The position numbers and the translations under genes were made by a program. 64,000 nt of DNA from Microbacterium limosum (GTDB lineage Bacteria; Actinomycetota; Actinomycetes; Actinomycetales; Microbacteriaceae): positions 1,860,001 through 1,924,000 of the forward strand of contig NZ_CP137080.1 of NCBI RefSeq assembly GCF_036324365.1, in the 5' to 3' direction. Under the pieces are notes generated by a model that was not told the DNA's origin, did not search any database, and saw only the letters and a program-made list of their open reading frames with translations. This document shows positions 44,598-64,000 of the stretch, piece after piece (the stretch's first letter is position 1; each line of letters opens with the position of its first letter).

Positions 44598-44656
44598 CGC
44601 GGCGGGGCGGGAATGCAAAGGCGTCCCGCCCGCGTTGCTAGACTCCAGAGCATCAA

Positions 44657-44809
44657 CGTGCTCCGGGGTCGGTGAGAATCCGAACCGGCGGTGAGAGTCC
44701 GCGAGCCGAGGCACCCGTTCCGACGGGAGCCGAGGTCGATCCGGTGTAATTCCGGAACCGACGGTGATGTACGGCACCTGCCGTACGAGTCCGGATGGGA
44801 GGCAGCACG
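44657..44809 (+). promoter_or_regulatory. FMN riboswitch (RFN element)
   Basis: The leader has the RFN landmarks in order: GGGGTCGGTG near 44665, AACCGGCGGTGAGAGTCCGC (about 44684-44703), a variable stem, GGTGTAATTCCGGAACCGAC and AGTCCGGATGGGAGG. The closing P1 stem is formed by CGTGCT (44657-44662) and AGCACG (44804-44809). It lies 76 bp before ribD and should reduce expression of the riboflavin operon when FMN is plentiful. Confidence 0.95.
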
Positions 44810-44838
44810 GAGGTGTCGCGTCGACGCGTGACACCTCC
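44809..44838 (+). promoter_or_regulatory. Expression-platform hairpin of the FMN riboswitch
   Basis: GGAGGTGTC pairs with GACACCTCC (9 bp) around a self-complementary GCGTCGACGC. The 5' base of the stem is shared with the end of the aptamer P1 helix, so the two can interact. No T-run follows, so regulation may be by translation or Rho rather than an intrinsic terminator. Confidence 0.5.
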
Positions 44839-53143: not shown

Positions 53144-54159
53144 GTGATCATCGACTGCCACGGCCACTTCACCACGACCCCGCCGGGGGTCGCCGCATGG
53201 CGGGAGGCGCAGCTGGCGGCATCCACCGCCGACGAGCTCGATGCCGTCGCCGCGCGCGAGTACGAGGTGACCGACGACGAGATCCGGGATGCCGTCGGCG
53301 GCGCCCAGCTCGCCCAGCAGCGGGAGCGCGGCACCGATCTCACGATCTTCTCCCCTCGCGCCAGCTGGATGGCCCACCACGTGGGCGACGAGCGCACGTC
53401 GCGGGAATGGACCAGGAGGCAGAACGACCTCATCCACCGCGTCTGCACGCTCTTCCCGGGCAGCTTCGCCCCCGTCGCGCAGCTGCCGCAGAGCCCGGGC
53501 GCTCCGATCGAGGGCGCGGTCGCCGAGCTGCGGCGCTGCGTCGAGGAGCTCGGCTTCATCGGCTGCAACGTCAACCCCGACCCGAGCGGGGGCGATGGGA
53601 CGGCCCCGCCCTGTCGGATGCGTACTGGACGCCGCTCTGGGAGGCGATGGAGGAGCTCGACGTGCCCGGCATGGTGCACGTGAGCGCATCGGACAACCCG
53701 ACCGTCCACACCACCGGCGCCTACTATCTCGCGGCCGACACGACCGCCTTCATGCAGGCCCTCAGCTCGGGGTTCCTCTCCCGGCATCCCGGCCTGCGCC
53801 TCGTGATCCCCCACGGCGGGGGCGCCGTTCCGTACCACTGGGGTCGATTCCGCGGCATGGCCCGCGACCAGGGGTGGGACTTCGAGGCCACCATGTCGCA
53901 GATCTGGTTCGACACCTGCGTGTACCACCAGCCCGGAATCGACCTCCTCCTCGAGGTCGTACCGACGTCCCAGGTGCTGTTCGGCTCCGAGATGATCGGC
54001 GCCGTGCGAGGCACCGACCCCGACACCGGTCGGCACTGGGACGACACGAAGGCCTACATCGAGGCGTCCGCACTGGATGCCGCGGCCCGCGACGCCGTCT
54101 TCGAGGGCAACGCCCGCCGGGTCTACCCCCGCATCGAGGGCTGGTTGCCGGCGCGGTAG
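53144..54159 (+). pseudogene. ligJ: 4-Oxalomesaconate hydratase (LigJ-type amidohydrolase), apparent 1-nt frameshift
   Basis: Amidohydrolase_2-family hydratase of the gallate/protocatechuate 4,5-cleavage pathway, making 4-carboxy-4-hydroxy-2-oxoadipate. It begins IIDCHGHFTT (metal HxH); later parts are VIPHGGGAVPYHWGRF, IWFDTCVYHQ and LFGSEMIGAVRGTDPDTG, matching LigJ landmarks. The frame breaks at the G5 run 53588-53592. The upstream frame would stop at 53683 (179 residues), and the rest is read in another frame to 54159. One extra G would restore NPDPSGGRWDGPALSDAYW and a 338-residue protein, the usual length. It may be a sequencing error or a true loss. Ribosome-binding site GGAGA before the GTG. 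Confidence 0.82.
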
Positions 54160-54190
54160 CGCACGCCCCTCTCCCGGGCAGAGGAGCATT

Positions 54191-54234
54191 GCCGAGGCGA
54201 GGGGGCCTTCGCGGGAAAGCCCCCTCGCCTCGGC
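54191..54234. terminator. Bidirectional terminator between ligJ and the convergent catabolic operon
   Basis: A perfect 16-bp stem (GCCGAGGCGAGGGGGC / GCCCCCTCGCCTCGGC) with a 12-nt loop. A second small hairpin (CGTCCTC / GAGGACG) follows at 54239-54261. Suited to stop both converging transcripts. Confidence 0.75.
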
Positions 54235-54318
54235 AGACGTCCTCTCCCGAGGCGAGGACGCCACGCGTCGCGACCGCTCAGACGGAACGGTGGAGCGCGC
54301 GAGCAGCCGGTGGAGGCA

Positions 54319-55422
54319 TCAGGCGAAGACCACCACCGGCTTGACGACCTCGCCGTTCTCCGAGGCGGAGAAGGCGTCGTTGATGTCGTGGAAGTCGAAG
54401 TTCTCCACGAGGCGGTCGAAGGGGAAGCGACCCTGCCGCCACAGCTCGATCAGTCGAGGGATGAAGACCTGCGGGATCGAATCGCCCTCGATGATCATCT
54501 TCAGCGACCAGCCCCGGGTCATGGACAGGCCGGTCTCGACGGCCGTCTCGGTGCCGGGCGCCTGAGCGCCGACGACGCCGACCGTTCCGCGGACGCCGAG
54601 AGAGTCCACCGCCTGGCGCAGCACATCGCTGCGCCCCGAGGTCTCGAGCGCGAAGTCCACTCCGTCGCCGGTCAGCTCCTTCACCCGCGCCGCGACGTCG
54701 CCCTCACGCGCATCGACCGTGTCGGTCGCCCCGAGCTCGAGCGCGAGCGCGAGACGGTCGGGGTTGACGTCCACCGCGATGATCCGTCCGCACCCGACCG
54801 CCACGGCGGCGAGCAGGGCCGACAGACCCACGGCACCCGCCCCGAACACGGCGAAGGTCGTGCCCGCCGCCGGGCGCAGCGAGTTCATCACCGCTCCGGC
54901 TCCGGTCTGGATGCCGCAGCCGAGCGGCCCCATGAGCTCGAGCGGCACATCGTCGGGCACCTTCACCACGGCGCGCTCGTCCGCGTTCGCGTATGTCGCG
55001 AAAGAGGATTGCCCGAAGAAGTGCGACGAGACCGCCGAACCCCCGGCATCCGTGAGCGCCGTGGAGCCGTCGATGCGGGTCCCGCCGAAGTTCAGGGCGT
55101 AGAGCGACTCGCAGTAGGTGCTCGCTCCCTCGAGGCAGTGCCGGCACCGGCCGCACGTGTTCACGGAGAGGACGACGTGATCGCCGGGGGCCACCGACCT
55201 CACCGCGCCGCCGACGGCCTCCACGATCCCCGCTCCCTCGTGGCCGAGAACGGCGGGCAGCGGCGTCGGGTAGATCTGGTCGCGGACGACGGCGTCGGTG
55301 TGGCACACGCCGGTCGCGACCATGCGCACCCGCACCTCCGTGGGGCGCAGCTCGTCGAGATCCAGCTCCTCGATGACGAGGGGGGCGCCCGCGTCGCGGG
55401 CGACGGCTGCCAGCGTCTTCAT
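54319..55422 (-). CDS. Zinc-dependent alcohol dehydrogenase (aryl-alcohol/XylB-like)
   Basis: 367-residue medium-chain NAD-dependent dehydrogenase. Catalytic zinc ligands lie in GVCHTD, GHEGAG and PLGCGIQTG. The structural zinc ligands are four Cys in NTCGRCRHCLEGASTYC. The NAD fold has FGAGAVGLSALL. The subgroup resembles aryl-alcohol dehydrogenases, so oxidation of a lignin-derived benzylic or cinnamyl alcohol is a reasonable inference. An alternative would be removal of an aldehyde by-product. It is the last gene of the minus-strand operon, 13 bp after the dioxygenase. Confidence 0.85.
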   Translation of the reverse strand: MKTLAAVARDAGAPLVIEELDLDELRPTEVRVRMVATGVCHTDAVVRDQIYPTPLPAVLGHEGAGIVEAVGGAVRSVAPGDHVVLSVNTCGRCRHCLEGASTYCESLYALNFGGTRIDGSTALTDAGGSAVSSHFFGQSSFATYANADERAVVKVPDDVPLELMGPLGCGIQTGAGAVMNSLRPAAGTTFAVFGAGAVGLSALLAAVAVGCGRIIAVDVNPDRLALALELGATDTVDAREGDVAARVKELTGDGVDFALETSGRSDVLRQAVDSLGVRGTVGVVGAQAPGTETAVETGLSMTRGWSLKMIIEGDSIPQVFIPRLIELWRQGRFPFDRLVENFDFHDINDAFSASENGEVVKPVVVFA

Positions 55423-55435
55423 CTTCGTTCCTTCC

Positions 55436-56428
55436 TCAGCGGCCCTCGAGGGCTTTGCGGTCGATCTCCTCCTGATTCTCCACGTACGGAGTGCCGTGCG
55501 TGTGGAACGTGGGGATCGTCTTCATGCCCCAGGCCTGACCCTTGGCGCGCTCGGCCTGCGTCCACTCCACGACCGGCCAGTCGGGATCGAGGATGAGGCG
55601 GGCGCCCGCGTTGGCGAACTCGATCCGGTTGCCACCGGGCTCCCACACGTAGAGGAAGAACGTCTGGTTGATCGCGTGCTTGTAGGGGCCGTACTCGATG
55701 TAGACCTTGTTCTCGAGGAAGATGTCGGCCGCCTTGAGGATGTCCTCGCGCGTGTCGGGGGCGAGGGCGAAGTGGTGGAAGCGCCCGCGCTGCTTCGACC
55801 AGTCGTCGGAGTAGACCACGTCGTAGGACTTCTGGTTGAAGCGGAACCACCACGCGCCGTAGCGGCCGTCGTCGAGGCGAACCCGCTCCGACTCACGCGC
55901 CTTCATGACATCGCGCCAGAACTCTCCCGCCGCGTTGACGTCGCTGGCGAGGTAGTTGATGTGGTCCATGCGACGCGCGTTGACGCCGCGTCCGGGGAAC
56001 GCCGAGGCCTGGTTCTTCAGCGCCGGGCGGTCCTCGTCGTCCGCGCGGTAGAGCTCGGTGTCGTAGTACACCGCCATCGTGTGGCCGTCCGGGTCCTCGA
56101 ACTCGTAGGAGCGGCCGACGCCGACCTCAGGGTCGCGCCAGCCGTGCCCGAGACCCGCGGCCTCGATCGCGGCGACGCGACGCTCGAGGGCCTCCTGGCT
56201 CGACGCCCGGAAGAGGGTGCGTCCGACGCCGTTCGTGTCGGACGCCGTGAGCTTGAGCGTATAGAGCTGGTACTCGTCCCAGCAGCGCAGATACGCGGAG
56301 TCTCCGATCCGCGCGACCTCGCGCATCGCGCACAGGTCGCGGAAGAAGTGCAGGCTCTCCTCGAACTTCGGGGTGAACAACTCGACGCCGCCCATGTGGG
56401 CGATGTCGAAGTTCTCGTATTCGGCCAT
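55436..56428 (-). CDS. Type I extradiol (VOC) ring-cleavage dioxygenase
   Basis: 330 residues with two vicinal-oxygen-chelate modules (about 8-125 and 150-275). The candidate iron ligands of the C-terminal module are His156 (RMDHINYL), His218/219 (GRFHHFAL) and Glu270 (NRIEFA), the 2-His-1-carboxylate set of catechol 2,3-dioxygenases. A C-terminal tail of about 50 residues contains FHTHGTPYVEN. The ATG at 56428 follows AAGGAGG at ideal spacing. Its operon encodes lower-pathway enzymes for gallate/protocatechuate 4,5-cleavage. I infer that it opens gallate or a methylgallate; substrate is not proven by sequence. Confidence 0.85.
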   Translation of the reverse strand: MAEYENFDIAHMGGVELFTPKFEESLHFFRDLCAMREVARIGDSAYLRCWDEYQLYTLKLTASDTNGVGRTLFRASSQEALERRVAAIEAAGLGHGWRDPEVGVGRSYEFEDPDGHTMAVYYDTELYRADDEDRPALKNQASAFPGRGVNARRMDHINYLASDVNAAGEFWRDVMKARESERVRLDDGRYGAWWFRFNQKSYDVVYSDDWSKQRGRFHHFALAPDTREDILKAADIFLENKVYIEYGPYKHAINQTFFLYVWEPGGNRIEFANAGARLILDPDWPVVEWTQAERAKGQAWGMKTIPTFHTHGTPYVENQEEIDRKALEGR

Positions 56429-56474
56429 GTGTCCGTCCTCCTTGACTGTGCCGGATGCCTCGGATCCGGCGGGT

Positions 56475-57534
56475 TCACCTCCGCGGGCGCGGGAAGACGC
56501 GCCCGTCGAAGAGCTTTCGTGCGGTGCGCTCCGACGCGGACGACCCGCGCCAGACACCGTCTTCGTCCTGCGTCACGATCACGCGCGCGGCGAAGGTGCC
56601 GCCGGGATGCTCGATGAGCGTCTCGTCCCCCGGGCCGAGCGCGGCCAGGGAGTGCCCCACCGCACCGGGAACGCGGATGCCGGCGGCCACCGACGCGGCC
56701 ATGAGCACCCCGATCGAGGTGTGCACCCGGTGGGGGATGAAGGCCCGCGTGCGGATGGCGCCCCCCGCGGCCGGGGCCGAGAGGAGGAACATCTTCGGCA
56801 CGGTCTGCCCCGCGGCATCCGCGATGCCCAGGAGCGCCGCGGCGCCCATCCGCACCCGCTCCACCTCGGCGCGCAGCGCGGCGTTCTCCTCGAGCTCGGC
56901 GGGCGACTCCGACCCCGTGATGCCGAACTCGGCGGCGTCCATCAGCACCGTCGGCATCCCGTTGTCGACGATGGAGACGCGGTGGCCGGCGACCTCGTCG
57001 CGCACGGCGCCGGTCGGGAACAGGGGTGCGGACCGGGTCACCGAGAGCTCGATCGCGCCGGCCGTCCCCGGCACACCGTCGATCGCGAGATCGCCGTCGT
57101 AATCGACGACGCCCCCCGGGGTGGATATCCGAGCGGAGGCGATGTCGTCGGTGTTGAGCAGGCGGATGCGGACGGTCGTGACCGGGTCCTCGGCCCTCAC
57201 GAGTCCGCGCTCGATCGCGAAGGGGCCGACGCCGGCGAGCAGGTTGCCGCAGGTCTGCGAATCGCTGACGACGGGCTCGTCGACCCCCACCTGGAGGAAG
57301 AGATAGTCCACGTCGGCGCCGTCCTGCTCCGACGTCGAGACGATCGCGACCTTCGAGGTGAGGGGGTGCGCCCCGCCCACGCCGTCGATCTGCGCCGGAT
57401 CCGGCGTGCCCATGACGCGCATCATCAGGTCGTTGCGTGCGTCGCGCTCGGCGGGCACGTCGGATGACACGAAGTAGGCGCCCTTGGAGGTCCCGCCGCG
57501 CATGAGCATGCAGGGGATCCCCTCGCGGCTCGCG

Positions 57535-57545
<11 letters not shown>
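56475..57545 (-). CDS. 4-Oxalomesaconate tautomerase (GalD/LigU, PrpF family)
   Basis: 356-residue PrpF-superfamily isomerase interconverting keto/enol or double-bond isomers of oxalomesaconate. The start region GIPCMLMRGGTSKGAYF, then GVGGAHPLTSKVAIV, QTCGNLLAGVGPFAIERGLV, VDNGMPTVLM and RAFIPHRVHTSIGVL, follow the GalD of Pseudomonas putida throughout by my recall of that sequence. The ATG at 57545 gives an 11-bp overlap with the aldolase gene upstream. It acts between ring cleavage and LigJ hydration. Confidence 0.87.
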
Positions 57546-59809
<2,264 letters not shown>

Positions 59810-59819
59810 CCGCACACGA

Positions 59820-59851
59820 GAGGGGGTGGATGCCGCGGCATCCGCCCCCTC
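59820..59851. terminator. Terminator between ligM and convergent LysR gene
   Basis: 14-bp stem (GAGGGGGTGGATGC / GCATCCGCCCCCTC, one G-U) with CGCG loop, 10 bp after the ligM stop and close to the end of the lysR gene, followed by CCTTC. The stem is built around GGATGCCGCGGCATCC, a word that recurs through the window. Confidence 0.7.
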
Positions 59852-59876
59852 CCTTCGTATCGGCGCTGCGGCGGGC

Positions 59877-60809
59877 CTACCCCGCGGCGACGGCGTCGCC
59901 GTGGATCACGCCGAACTGGCCGGAGGACCCCCGGATGGCACCGGCGACCGTGGCGAACAACCAGTCCAGCGCGGCGGCGTGCTGGGTCGTGGAACGCCGG
60001 TAGAGCCGCACATCCACGGGCGCCATCTCGAACGGCAGCGGGCGGACGACCAGGCGCCAGCTCTCGGCCCACCCCGCGGCGATCGTGTCGGGGACCGTGG
60101 CCACGAGACCCGAGCGCCCCGCGAGCAGCGGCGGGAGCGCCGCGAAGTGGTTGATGGACACCCGCGGCGGCGGAGGCGCGGCCACGCGTCGCAGAGCGGC
60201 GTCGACATTCGCCGCACCCGAATCGCTCGCGACCCTCACGTGCTCGGCGGCGAGGTAGTCGGCAAGGCCCACCTCGCCCCGCGCGAGGGGGTGCCGCTGG
60301 GACACCGCCACCCCGTAGGCCTGCGACTTCAGCACCGTCTGGGCGAACTCCCCCGGCACCGGGGCCGGGGTGACGGCGAGATCGACACTGCCCCTGCCGA
60401 GCCATTCCGGCAGCTCCGCGACATCCATCGGCACGACCTCGAGACGCATGCCGGGCGCCCGCTCCGCGACAGCGCGGTGTATCGCGGGGATCCACCCGAT
60501 CTCCCCCAGTTCCGACAGCGCGATCCGGAACAGTCGCTGCGACGAGGCGGGGTCGAACCGGTGCACCGCATCGACCGTGCGATCGATCCCGGCGATCGCG
60601 TCGCGAAAGCCCGGGTACACCGAGAGTGCGAGCGGCGTGGGAACCATCTCCCGGCCGGAGCGCTGGAAGAGCGGATCATCCAAGTCGCGCCGCAGCTTCG
60701 CCAGCGCCTGGCTGACCGCCGGCTGGGTGACGTAGAGACGGGCCGCCGCCGCCGTGAGACTGCGCGTCTCCGCGACCGCCACGAAGACGCGCACGAGGTT
60801 CAGGTCCAT
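59877..60809 (-). CDS. LysR-family transcriptional regulator
   Basis: 310 residues with the LysR N-terminal helix-turn-helix (about 1-60): LVRVFVAVAETRSLTAAAARLYVTQPAVSQALAKLRRDL. The effector-binding domain follows. It is divergent from the second ligM-like gene, with a T-N11-A dyad between them, so it probably controls that gene and itself in response to an aromatic acid. GalR in Pseudomonas is also a LysR regulator of gallate genes, a parallel but not proof. Confidence 0.9.
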   Translation of the reverse strand: MDLNLVRVFVAVAETRSLTAAAARLYVTQPAVSQALAKLRRDLDDPLFQRSGREMVPTPLALSVYPGFRDAIAGIDRTVDAVHRFDPASSQRLFRIALSELGEIGWIPAIHRAVAERAPGMRLEVVPMDVAELPEWLGRGSVDLAVTPAPVPGEFAQTVLKSQAYGVAVSQRHPLARGEVGLADYLAAEHVRVASDSGAANVDAALRRVAAPPPPRVSINHFAALPPLLAGRSGLVATVPDTIAAGWAESWRLVVRPLPFEMAPVDVRLYRRSTTQHAAALDWLFATVAGAIRGSSGQFGVIHGDAVAAG

Positions 60810-60842
60810 GTTCTTCGCCCCCTAAGGCATCCTTCGGACCGG

Positions 60843-60857
60843 ATAAGTATCGCTTAT
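60843..60857. promoter_or_regulatory. LysR-type operator ATAAG-N5-CTTAT
   Basis: Perfect 5+5 dyad containing the T-N11-A core of LysR recognition sites, 34 bp from the lysR start and 71 bp from the divergent ligM-like start. AT-rich in a GC-rich background. Location and form fit the binding site of the adjacent regulator. Confidence 0.65.
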
Positions 60858-60927
60858 TCACGATCGGGGCGAATATGCGGCTGCCTACTTAGCATGGAAC
60901 CAGACCCGACCGAACGAAGGAGTTCCC

Positions 60928-62292
60928 GTGAACACCCCCGCCCCCGAGACCGCCGCCGCCGCGATCGCCCGCGCCGGCGGTCCGGTCGCCCATCTGCGCC
61001 ACGCGCAGGTGCGCCCCACCGTCTTCCCCGTGACGCCCGAGTTCAGTAACTGGCGCAGCGAGCAGCGCGCCTGGCGCGACTCGGTCGCGCTGCTGGACCA
61101 GTCCCACCACATGACCGACCTGTTCATCTCGGGGCCCGACGCCCTGTCGCTGCTGCGCGACGTCGGGGTGAACAGCTTCGCCGACTTCCCCGTCGACGCC
61201 GCGAAGCAGTTCATCGCCGTCAACCACGAGGGATACCTGATCGGAGACGCCATCCTCTTCCACCTCGAGGAGGACGTCTACGACCTGGTCGGATGGCACA
61301 TGGTGATCGACTGGGTGCAGTACCACGGCGAGCGCGGCGAGTACAACGTCACCTTCGAGCGCGACGGCAACTCCCTCGTCCGCGAGGGCGATCCCACGCT
61401 CTACCGCTACGAGATCCAGGGGCCGCACGCCCTCGCCCTCATGGAGAAGGTGACGGGAGCCGCCGTCCCGAAGACGAGGTTCTTCGGGATGGCCACGTTC
61501 GAGATCGCCGGAGTGACGGTGCGCTCGCTCCGCCACGGCATGGCCGGGCAGCCCGGATTCGAGCTCTTCGGCCCGTGGGCGGAGGGCGAGCGGGTGCGCA
61601 GCGCCCTGATCGAGGCGGGCGAGGAGTTCGGTCTCGTGCTCGTCGGCTCGCGCGCGTACTCGTCCGCCAATCTCGAATCGGCGTGGGTCCCCTCTCCGCT
61701 CCCCGCCATCTTCACGGGACGGGGATCGGCGGAGTACCTGGAGTGGCTTCCCGCGGCCCGTACGGGCTCGCTGGCCGGGAGTCTGGACGCCGCCGACATC
61801 GAGGACTACTACCTCACACCGTACGACCTGGGCTATGGCCGCAGCGTCGCCTTCGACCACGACTTCATCGGACGGGAGGCGCTCGAGGCCCACGCGGCGG
61901 CACCCCAGCGCGTGAAGGTGACGCTGGTATGGCACCCCGAGGACGTCGCCGCGGCGCAGCGCAGCCTGTACGAGGAGGGGACTCCCGCGAAGTTCATCGA
62001 CTTCCCGAAGGCGCGGTACGGGCAGCACCAGATGGATCGCGTGCTCCTGGACGGCACGGACGTCGGCATCTCGCACGATGCCGGATACATCGTCGGCGAG
62101 CAGGCCTTCGTCTCGCTGGCGAGCATCGCGGCCGAGCACGCCACGCCCGGCACCGAGGTCGTCGTCCTATGGGGAGAGGAGCCGAACACCACCAAGCCCT
62201 CGGTGGAGCCCCACCGCCAGGTGGCGATCCGCGCCACGGTGGAGCCGGCCCCCTACTCGCGGTTCGCCCGAGAGAACTACCGCGCCGGCTGA
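60928..62292 (+). CDS. Second LigM/DesA-like tetrahydrofolate-dependent O-demethylase
   Basis: 454-residue paralogue of the 58.4-kb ligM. Shared blocks include TPEFSNWRSEQRAWRD, LDQSHHMTDLFI, YEIQGPHALALMEKV, RSLRHGMAGQPGFELFGPW and NLESAWVPSPLPAIF; Tyr244 sits in GSRAYSSAN. It differs from ligM at the [11 protein letters not shown] stretch (here YDLVGWHMVIDW), so substrate choice may differ, perhaps syringate versus vanillate. GTG start with AAGGAG ribosome-binding site. Own LysR regulator next door. Confidence 0.86.
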   Translation: MNTPAPETAAAAIARAGGPVAHLRHAQVRPTVFPVTPEFSNWRSEQRAWRDSVALLDQSHHMTDLFISGPDALSLLRDVGVNSFADFPVDAAKQFIAVNHEGYLIGDAILFHLEEDVYDLVGWHMVIDWVQYHGERGEYNVTFERDGNSLVREGDPTLYRYEIQGPHALALMEKVTGAAVPKTRFFGMATFEIAGVTVRSLRHGMAGQPGFELFGPWAEGERVRSALIEAGEEFGLVLVGSRAYSSANLESAWVPSPLPAIFTGRGSAEYLEWLPAARTGSLAGSLDAADIEDYYLTPYDLGYGRSVAFDHDFIGREALEAHAAAPQRVKVTLVWHPEDVAAAQRSLYEEGTPAKFIDFPKARYGQHQMDRVLLDGTDVGISHDAGYIVGEQAFVSLASIAAEHATPGTEVVVLWGEEPNTTKPSVEPHRQVAIRATVEPAPYSRFARENYRAG

Positions 62293-62305
62293 CCAGTCTC
62301 CGCGC

Positions 62306-62355
62306 GACGACGAACGCCGCCGCCTCTCGTGGAAGAGGGGGCGGCGTTCGTCGTC
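62306..62355. terminator. Long bidirectional terminator between second demethylase and IclR gene
   Basis: 16-bp perfect stem (GACGACGAACGCCGCC / GGCGGCGTTCGTCGTC) with an inner CCTCT/AGAGG stem. The right arm overlaps the last codon of the IclR gene, which is convergent. Confidence 0.75.
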
Positions 62356-63253
62356 ACCGCGGCATCCCCTCCGACGCTCGCGCATCGCGCATCCCCGGAT
62401 CGTGCGGATCGCGCGCGAGGCGCTCCAGATACTCGAGCGACCTGGTGGAGGCGCCCATGAGGGCGCGAAGACCTCGTGCGCCCTCATCTGCGTCGGGACG
62501 ATAGGCGCGCGCGAGCTCACGCGCCGCACCGGCCGCCGCGCGCTGCAGCAGCTCGACGATCGGCTGCGGCGAGGATCCGTCGTTGGGCACGACGACGCCC
62601 ATCGCGGCGTACACGGAGCCGTCGGGGCCCCGCACGGGCACGGCGACGCCGCGCGACTCCTCGTGGATGTGACCCGCCAGCTCGGCGTACCCCCTGGCGC
62701 GCACGCGCCGCAGCTCGGCTCGCAGGCGCGATCCGGACGTGATCGTCTGGTCGGTGTACCGGCGAAGGCCGCGCGCGATCAGCTCGTCGACGACGCCCTC
62801 GCCGGCATCCGCGAGCAGCACGAGCCCGCTGGAGGAGGCGTGCAGCGGGATGCGTCCCCCGATGAGCGTGGCGTTGAGCACGGCATCCCGGGCCGACATC
62901 CTCTCGATGAAGAGCACGTCGCTGCCGCTGCGGATCCCCAGCTGCGCGTGCTGCCGCGCACGTTCGTGCACCGCCCCGAGCCACGGACGCGCGATCTCCC
63001 GGAGGCCCAGCGCGCCGGGTGTGCGGCTGGCGAACTCCCATAACCGCACACCCAGGCGATACGACCGGTCGGGCAGCCTCTCGAGCAGCCCCTCCCTCTC
63101 GAGCTCGGAGACGAGACGGTGGGCGCTGGAGCGGGCGAGGCCCGCGGCATCCGCGATCTCCGAGAGGGTCAGCGTCGGATGCCAGGGATCGAAGGCGTCG
63201 AGGATGCGCAGGTGCTTGTGCAGCACGCTCTCGCCCGCCGACCCTCTTGCCAC
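62354..63253 (-). CDS. IclR-family transcriptional regulator
   Basis: 299 residues. The N-terminal winged helix (about 1-70) has LTLSEIADAAGLARSSAHRLVSELEREGLL, and the effector domain has GIRSGSDVLFIERMSARDAV and SRGVAVPVRGPDGSVYAAMGV, both typical of IclR regulators of aromatic catabolism. It starts with a GTG and lies 62 bp after the third demethylase gene on the same strand. It is a candidate controller of the TACAAT-box promoters, which is inference. Confidence 0.9.
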   Translation of the reverse strand: MARGSAGESVLHKHLRILDAFDPWHPTLTLSEIADAAGLARSSAHRLVSELEREGLLERLPDRSYRLGVRLWEFASRTPGALGLREIARPWLGAVHERARQHAQLGIRSGSDVLFIERMSARDAVLNATLIGGRIPLHASSSGLVLLADAGEGVVDELIARGLRRYTDQTITSGSRLRAELRRVRARGYAELAGHIHEESRGVAVPVRGPDGSVYAAMGVVVPNDGSSPQPIVELLQRAAAGAARELARAYRPDADEGARGLRALMGASTRSLEYLERLARDPHDPGMRDARASEGMPR

Positions 63254-63269
63254 CGCGTCCTCCTCGACA

Positions 63270-63304
63270 TCGGCGCCATGCTACCTGCCGGGGACGGGCG
63301 CCGA
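63270..63304 (-). terminator. Hairpin between third demethylase and IclR gene
   Basis: 8-bp perfect stem (TCGGCGCC / GGCGCCGA) with a 19-nt loop directly after the demethylase stop. It probably limits read-through into the regulator gene. No T-run. Confidence 0.4.
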
Positions 63305-63315
63305 CGCCGCCCGAG

Positions 63316-64000
63316 TCAGTCGTCGGCGCGATATACGGTGCGCGCCCACTCGTGGTACGGAGCCGGTGCGACCGTCGCGCGGATCCGGACCTGGCGGTGC
63401 GACGCGTCGACGGAGTCCTTGCGCGAGATCGGGTCCTCGCCCCACACGACCTCGACCTCGGCTCCGTCCGCCACGTCGTTGTCGACCGTGGCGAGGGACA
63501 TGTAGAGCTGGTCGTAGGCGATGTACCCCGCGTCGGTGGAGATGCCCGCCGGCCGGTCGTGGTAGCGCACCTCGTCCATCTGGAACAGTCCGTAGCGCGC
63601 CTTCGGGAAGTCGAGGAACTTCGCCGGCACGCCGGGCTCCATCTGCGACCGGACGACCGCCGCGACGTCCTCCGCGTTCCAGAGCAGCGTCACCTTCCGG
63701 CGGCGCTGGTCGGCCGCGTGACGCTCGAGGGCCTCGCGCCCGTGGAAGTCGTGGTCGAAGCGCACGGAACGACCGAGCCCCAGGTCGTAGGGCGTCATGT
63801 AGTAGTCGTGGATGTCGTCGGAGTACAGCGAACCGGCGACCGATCCGGCGCGTGCGGCCGGCAGCCACTCCCGGTACTCGGCGAAGTCGTCGCCGAAGAT
63901 CGCGGGGAACGGCGTGGGCACCCACCCCGACTCCAGCGGCGTGGCGGAGTATGCCTTGGCCCCGACGCGCCGGATGCCGAACTCCTCGCCCGCGGTCAGG
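63316..64000 (-). CDS. Third LigM-like O-demethylase, 5' part beyond window
   Basis: The C-terminal 227 or so residues of another GcvT-fold demethylase; the frame stays open to the right edge. Blocks shared with the two other copies are AYSATPLESGWVPTPFPAIF, EYREWLPAARAGSVAGSL, YDLGLGRSVRFDHDF and RIRATVAPAPYHEWARTVY. The tyrosine corresponding to the LigM catalytic residue is retained (codon 63949-63951). It is closer to the 60.9-kb copy than to ligM (LDFPKARYG, AGYIAYDQ). The start cannot be seen. Confidence 0.86.
   Translation of the reverse strand, partial: LTAGEEFGIRRVGAKAYSATPLESGWVPTPFPAIFGDDFAEYREWLPAARAGSVAGSLYSDDIHDYYMTPYDLGLGRSVRFDHDFHGREALERHAADQRRRKVTLLWNAEDVAAVVRSQMEPGVPAKFLDFPKARYGLFQMDEVRYHDRPAGISTDAGYIAYDQLYMSLATVDNDVADGAEVEVVWGEDPISRKDSVDASHRQVRIRATVAPAPYHEWARTVYRADD

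Follow-up and report, generated by a model that had tools for sequence, protein, structure and literature searches.

A VOC-fold dioxygenase as candidate gallate dioxygenase in a lignin-acid gene cluster of Microbacterium limosum

The core of the gene cluster

The window analyzed here, a stretch of 64,000 nucleotides, corresponds to positions 1860001-1924000 of the single-contig genome of Microbacterium limosum (2,792,796 bases, 99.91% complete) and contains a gene cluster that would convert methoxylated lignin acids to central metabolites via gallate. Its key component is a VOC-fold (type I) extradiol dioxygenase of 330 amino acids (55436-56428, minus strand), which we propose to be the gallate dioxygenase of this route. 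The minus-strand row of LigK, LigU, dioxygenase and alcohol dehydrogenase genes spans positions 58236 to 54319; the LigJ gene is oriented convergently and a LigM gene starts divergently at position 58406. An earlier note, made from the letters of the window alone, had listed LigU-, LigJ- and LigK-type enzymes together with an extradiol dioxygenase within 11 kb. All of these genes are present, but the note had recognized neither the VOC fold of the dioxygenase nor the broken reading frame of LigJ.

The LigU/GalD-type 4-oxalomesaconate tautomerase (56475-57545, minus strand) has an oxalomesaconate delta-isomerase as its best solved match (336 bits) and reaches 421.9 bits with the model NF033377, whose equivalog cut-off is 440. 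The LigK/GalC-type 4-carboxy-4-hydroxy-2-oxoadipate aldolase (57535-58236, minus strand) scores above the cut-off of NF006731 (283 bits, cut-off 179) and below that of TIGR02798 (255 bits, cut-off 304). The LigJ-type 4-oxalomesaconate hydratase gene (Amidohydro_2; 53144-54159, plus strand) is assigned by its relatives, one of which, the intact protein of locus L016, matches a solved 4-oxalomesaconate hydratase with 419 bits. As sequenced it lacks an intact reading frame, being split over two frames with a switch between about 53563 and 53614, and 13 of 13 intact relatives align in this way. LigM, a vanillate/3-O-methylgallate O-demethylase of the tetrahydrofolate-dependent family (58406-59809, plus strand), exceeds the cut-off of its model NF047885 (905 bits, cut-off 580).

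The only Pfam match of the dioxygenase is PF00903; PF02900 is not matched, and the enzyme does not belong to the LigB superfamily of GalA and DesB. Its assignment to the type I class is based on PF00903, the 2-His-1-carboxylate ligands and the best fold matches, which are of the AphC type (TM 0.86; AlphaFold model with a mean pLDDT of 79 and a weak C-terminal part). The predicted metal ligands H156 and E270 are conserved in all 81 compared sequences and H219 in 80 of them. Fold and ligands are shared with AphC, catechol 2,3-dioxygenase and homoprotocatechuate 2,3-dioxygenase, but the sequence identity to AphC is 34%, a tyrosine takes the place of an AphC histidine and the neighbouring genes are those of oxalomesaconate metabolism.

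Conservation in relatives and alternation with LigB

A scan of a genome collection confirmed at least 519 relatives of the window dioxygenase, and the best 80 loci were kept for neighbourhood counts. The profiles and thresholds were built from these same 80 loci, so the counts describe conservation and do not represent an independent test. The closest named relatives stem mostly from Microbacterium, with Kocuria, Brevibacterium and other actinobacteria nearby. Within 5 kb of the dioxygenase, LigU is found at 64 and LigK at 66 loci, a GalB-type PIG-L protein at 50, LigJ at 12 and LigM-family genes at 36; LigU, LigK and a hydratase are all present within this distance at 57 of the 80 loci. The arrangement of the cluster thus recurs in relatives and is not due to chance. 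PIG-L and LigJ never occur together within 5 kb, as is expected of alternatives for one step, and a representative of the GalB-type PIG-L proteins matches a solved 4-oxalmesaconate hydratase with 257 bits. A gene for a DUF1932 NAD-binding oxidoreductase is present at 36 of the 80 loci (L068:11017-11832 and similar) as well as beside the enzyme on several plasmids, and could encode a dehydrogenase of the pathway.

The relationship to LigB was investigated in 150 genomes drawn from the host's family, some of which appear to be the same species as genomes of the 80 loci. A tautomerase match is present in 25 genomes (27 matches), a LigB gene in 36 and the dioxygenase, at 57% identity or more, in nine. 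All nine are among the 25 with a tautomerase and the two genes are adjacent (Fisher p ~2.5e-8, kinship ignored). In the 21 tautomerase neighbourhoods that were inspected (20 fetched and that of the window, with six of the 27 matches left out), this VOC enzyme is found nine times, LigB eight times, neither of them four times and both never; the eight LigB-bearing neighbourhoods also carry LigJ, LigU and LigK. This exclusion holds at the locus level in the host's family, but not genome-wide. A check of 48 whole genomes that harbor dioxygenase, LigU and LigK, out of 62 such loci, retrieved no LigB match in 26 of them.

Plasmids were searched by tblastn, which returned 73 records, and ten neighbourhoods were read. 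The plasmid of Agrobacterium tumefaciens 186 from walnut shows the order PIG-L, VOC enzyme, aldolase, tautomerase and tannase (PF07519, 438 bits), and this operon adjoins a Liv-type transporter and a DUF1932 gene. Since tannase frees gallate from gallotannins, no other observation points to gallate as directly. Agrobacterium vitis, two Thioclava and one Paracoccaceae plasmid share the order of the first four genes but lack the tannase, the last of them with one small extra gene; a Pantoea plasmid has these four genes arranged divergently. In Thermus oshimai, PIG-L and the aldolase are present, with no tautomerase in view. The enzymes of Rhodococcus qingshengii and Thermus thermophilus (38% identical) are of the His type described below, and no oxalomesaconate genes are annotated nearby. 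A LigB match is absent from seven of the eight plasmid records with a Tyr-type enzyme, a search that covered the plasmids and not the chromosomes.

The Tyr type is defined by position 202, where the tyrosine of the window enzyme aligns with a histidine of AphC. We take the latter to be the counterpart of His200 of homoprotocatechuate dioxygenase, located close to the carbon adjacent to the chelated diol, and Tyr202 may plausibly handle the third hydroxyl of gallate. All 89 clade members compared have the tyrosine (the window enzyme, those of the 80 loci and eight from the family survey, some perhaps of the same species), and all 20 of the more distant paralogues taken from genomes of the family have a histidine; on plasmids the respective numbers are eight of eight clade cases and two of two controls. 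In a quick tree calculated without column 202 the Tyr clade falls on one side of a branch with an SH-aLRT of 99, a value that comes with a long-branch warning. The fetched regions of the 20 His-type paralogues contain no match for LigU, LigK or GalB, and the LigJ-profile match in five of them probably represents a general amidohydrolase. The nearest solved sequence, PDB 9wgj (367 bits), has a tyrosine at the same aligned position and shows that others have worked on a clade member, but a paper on this entry was not found. Its name, catechol 1,2-dioxygenase, does not fit its VOC-type sequence.

The proposed route and its alternatives

The genome-wide inventory revealed no match to PF02900, the domain of the LigB superfamily, whereas the same search was positive in four of 14 control genomes. 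Hence no LigAB, DesB, DesZ or GalA was found either, and a hidden LigB-type dioxygenase was rejected. The route via gallate instead of protocatechuate 4,5-cleavage, as favoured in the earlier note, is supported. The note had also asked for a genome-wide search for LigAB-, DesB- and VanAB-type genes and regarded complete LigAB-LigC-LigI and VanAB systems as evidence to the contrary; nothing of the kind was found for the LigB superfamily and the VanA C-terminal domain, the parts covered (LigC and LigI were not searched). Both subunits of protocatechuate 3,4-dioxygenase (PcaGH) are present with scores above the cut-offs, so protocatechuate has its own route and was rejected as the main substrate of the branch. 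With protocatechuate, and probably catechol, routed separately, a reaction that supplies 4-oxalomesaconate is required for the enzymes that act on it.

We consider it likely, with a probability of about 0.73, that the VOC enzyme of the window is a non-homologous gallate dioxygenase that yields 4-oxalomesaconate and is fed by tetrahydrofolate-dependent demethylation. Substrate, cleavage position, product and growth are inferred from gene context. LigM-family enzymes would transfer the methoxy methyls to tetrahydrofolate, and the dioxygenase would open gallate beside its third hydroxyl (4,5-cleavage), with a tyrosine in place of the active-site histidine and as a non-homologous replacement of GalA and DesB. 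Since this cleavage gives 4-oxalomesaconate directly, LigC and LigI would not be needed. The product would be tautomerized by LigU and hydrated by LigJ, or by the GalB-type PIG-L protein at the majority of relative loci, and LigK would split the hydration product into pyruvate and oxaloacetate. The gallate dioxygenase, which the earlier note had thought missing from the window, is very likely the VOC enzyme itself. The note's expectation of growth on syringate- and vanillate-type acids has to be narrowed: protocatechuate derived from vanillate would go to PcaGH, outside this branch, and a DesA equivalog, and with it growth on syringate, is not established.

The individual parts of this route are known from other bacteria. 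The gal pathway of Pseudomonas putida KT2440 (GalA, GalB, GalC, GalD) has the tautomerase, hydratase and aldolase steps in common, and its GalB has PIG-L counterparts among the relatives; according to the available part of the literature GalA belongs to the LigB superfamily, and in M. limosum a VOC-fold enzyme would take its place and LigJ that of GalB. The system of Sphingobium SYK-6 (LigM/DesA, DesB, LigU-LigJ-LigK) shares a LigM recognized by the model cut-off, the LigU, LigJ and LigK types and a MetF-like gene beside a LigM. Unlike SYK-6, M. limosum has no recognizable LigB-superfamily gene, PurU instead of LigH beside MetF and LigM (LigH was not searched genome-wide) and two demethylases that match neither model cut-off.

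In the available part of PMC4250580, gallate dioxygenases are assigned to the LigB superfamily, and the type I substrates listed do not include gallate. The accessible text of a 2025 paper (PMC12314914) names DesB and GalA for gallate, with LigAB, DesZ and Mga enzymes nearby, and two of the new genes described there are similar to portions of GalA, LigA and LigB. An actinobacterial protocatechuate enzyme that also takes gallate is of type II, as stated in an excerpt of PMC8431788. No type I gallate dioxygenase was recognized in the open-licence literature, judged by titles and abstract openings; a cluster of gallate genes cited for Rhodococcus opacus PD630 in the part of PMC9942251 at hand is a risk to the novelty of a VOC gallate dioxygenase. 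With this proviso, the dioxygenase appears to represent a new class of gallate ring-cleaving enzymes that is not homologous to the known one, with a function deduced from its context.

Somewhat more cautiously, we favour the view that the large VOC clade, most members of which are named catechol 2,3-dioxygenase, represents a second, independently evolved class of gallate dioxygenases. Its hallmark would be the tyrosine in place of the active-site histidine; this tyrosine may bind gallate at its third hydroxyl and direct the cleavage to the 4,5-bond. The class would be responsible for the degradation of gallate and tannins, both in Actinobacteria and where Proteobacteria, plant-associated or others, carry it on plasmids. 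If true, enzymes dedicated to opening the gallate ring have arisen on two or more occasions from unrelated folds, and a distinct gallate-cleaving clade, recognizable by one residue and its neighbours, would be contained among the proteins labelled catechol 2,3-dioxygenase (at least 7350 scored relatives, perhaps including more distant enzymes). This would also account for the potential of actinobacteria lacking LigB genes to use syringyl lignin acids and tannins. Lignin conversion would gain new enzymes, and research on the mechanism of type I dioxygenases, already studied in much detail, a naturally occurring His-to-Tyr variant.

Several observations weigh against the gallate dioxygenase. On a Roseomonas gilardii plasmid, LigB-type and VOC-type dioxygenase genes are located in one operon (L137:6411-8963), with the aldolase about 8 kb away and neither a tautomerase nor PIG-L in view, which makes it a counter-example. 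A LigB gene is present elsewhere in the genome in two of the nine family genomes with the dioxygenase (G036, G044), and a LigB match was obtained in 22 of the 48 whole genomes, mostly with less than 150 bits and in two cases with more than 220 bits. At 18 of the 80 loci, LigU or LigK is not found within 5 kb; six of them lie on short contigs, and 12 are flanked by about 10 kb on each side. Of these 12, five (L021, L022, L032, L080, L083) are devoid of all four downstream types, four (L015, L017, L033, L034) have LigM-family genes as their only pathway genes and three (L054, L059, L082) carry GalB- and LigK-type genes without LigU. The tautomerase of the window remains 18 bits below its cut-off, the Tyr-type PDB 9wgj bears a catechol 1,2-dioxygenase name, and PcaGH converts some gallate into 2-pyrone-4,6-dicarboxylate in another bacterium (PMC12481942, seen in excerpt) and may therefore contribute in M. 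limosum. To these come the frameshift of LigJ and the want of a substitute for it, as the sole PIG-L match of the genome, considered as a GalB located elsewhere, resembles a methyltransferase fusion by our reading of its sequence and was rejected.

The frameshift of LigJ reflects a sequencing error or, alternatively, the loss of this step. A decayed pathway, with a genuine LigJ pseudogene and a branch that this strain does not use, is compatible with the enzyme roles proposed above and is unlikely, albeit to be taken seriously. It would account for a frame break set against 13 of 13 relatives and for the lack of a recognizable GalB-like gene in the genome, but the break is known from one assembly only and no second break was recognized in the 19.9 kb region, where four other two-frame alignments, as we read them, join neighbouring genes or antisense frames.

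The substrate of the dioxygenase could also be a different one. Most relatives that have been given a name appear as catechol 2,3-dioxygenase or VOC family protein, and the window enzyme obtains 286 bits with the catechol 2,3-dioxygenase model TIGR03211, below the equivalog cut-off of 320. The second VOC enzyme of the genome, which is of the His type (at 58639 of the genome), scores 292 bits; with both below the cut-off, the model does not discriminate between them, a further point against gallate. The neighbours of this His-type gene are of the kind known from catechol meta-cleavage: a gene for a hydratase-like protein that stays below its cut-off, one for an acetaldehyde dehydrogenase and one for a 4-hydroxy-2-oxovalerate aldolase. 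The genome thus has a separate enzyme within a catechol-type gene set, and the Tyr clade keeps its oxalomesaconate genes in Actinobacteria and on proteobacterial plasmids, which makes an ordinary catechol 2,3-dioxygenase with merely incidental neighbours decidedly improbable. A protocatechuate 4,5-dioxygenase, for which the DUF1932 dehydrogenase replaces LigC in some hosts, would be in agreement with the frequency of DUF1932 genes and with the Thermus oshimai operon, which includes a DUF1932 gene and whose location near a 4-hydroxybenzoate hydroxylase would fit protocatechuate and thus adds to the evidence against gallate. It is nevertheless improbable in view of PcaGH, the tannase of the Agrobacterium operon and the genome of M. 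limosum, in which DUF1932 was not matched (a search without a positive control). Cleavage of 3-O-methylgallate to a methyl ester, which an esterase then hydrolyses to 4-oxalomesaconate, is the most improbable of these alternatives: LigM-family genes are close at hand in 36 of the 80 loci and GalA also acts on 3-O-methylgallate (PMC12481942, in the part available), but 44 loci lack any LigM-family gene and the tannase neighbour fits free gallate.

Demethylases, methyl transfer and flanking genes

The three LigM-like demethylases of the earlier note are all present, but the first is the sole clear LigM. A LigM/DesA-like demethylase (60928-62292, plus strand) scores 569 bits with the DesA model NF047633 (cut-off 800) and 513 with the LigM model (cut-off 580); the third (63316 to about 64767, past the window end, minus strand) reaches 482 and 445 bits, respectively. 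Both pass neither model, and syringate is therefore a presumed substrate. VanAB as the demethylase was rejected, as the genome has no match to the VanA C-terminal domain.

A one-carbon gene row that may bear on the fate of the methyl groups lies about 0.7 Mb away from the cluster. It comprises the only MTHFR match of the genome, a weak one (31 bits, cut-off 24), PurU and a fourth LigM (876 bits, above the cut-off) at L009:7402-10598 (genome ~2614.4-2617.6 kb). The earlier note had suggested inspecting the sequence past the window for metF, folD and ligH homologues: a MetF-like gene is located in this row, with PurU rather than LigH at its side. The trio adjoins the dioxygenase in relatives such as L024, L025 and L030. 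A MetE-like gene of the cobalamin-independent methionine synthase family, a possible methyl sink, lies within 5 kb of the dioxygenase at 15 of the 80 loci (L014:2862-3977 and similar).

The region at L010:9591-14130 and L116:2982-7656 (genome ~47.6-59.7 kb) contains a fifth LigM-like gene, below both the LigM and the DesA cut-off. After this gene come a two-piece PEP-synthase-like pair, a regulator and the catechol-type meta-cleavage set with the His-type VOC dioxygenase. The region may constitute a guaiacol-type demethylation cluster that includes a phosphorylation step, for which no matching paper was recognized in a literature search.

The alcohol dehydrogenase and the two regulators mentioned in the earlier note were confirmed by domain and model matches. 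The Zn-dependent, benzyl-alcohol-dehydrogenase-like enzyme (54319-55422, minus strand) has an unspecified alcohol dehydrogenase as its top and benzyl alcohol dehydrogenase as its second solved match; with just three matches of 30-37% identity in the 80 loci, it lies outside the conserved core. The regulators are of the LysR type (59877-60809, minus strand) and of the IclR type (62354-63253, minus strand), the latter PcaR/PcaU/PobR-like with a score below the cut-off. Beyond the third demethylase, genes follow whose products we interpret as those of a Liv-type ABC transporter, together with a GntR regulator and an aldehyde dehydrogenase. A scan for promoters and terminators gave little result, with two promoter-like sites (mean of shuffles 0.5) and one terminator-like site (mean of shuffles 1.9). 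The divergent gap between LigK and LigM contains the inverted repeat CAAGATT-8-AATCTTG (58295-58318), a candidate operator. Outside the cluster, an FMN riboswitch at positions 44655-44811 of the window is the sole Rfam match, with a value above the gathering score.

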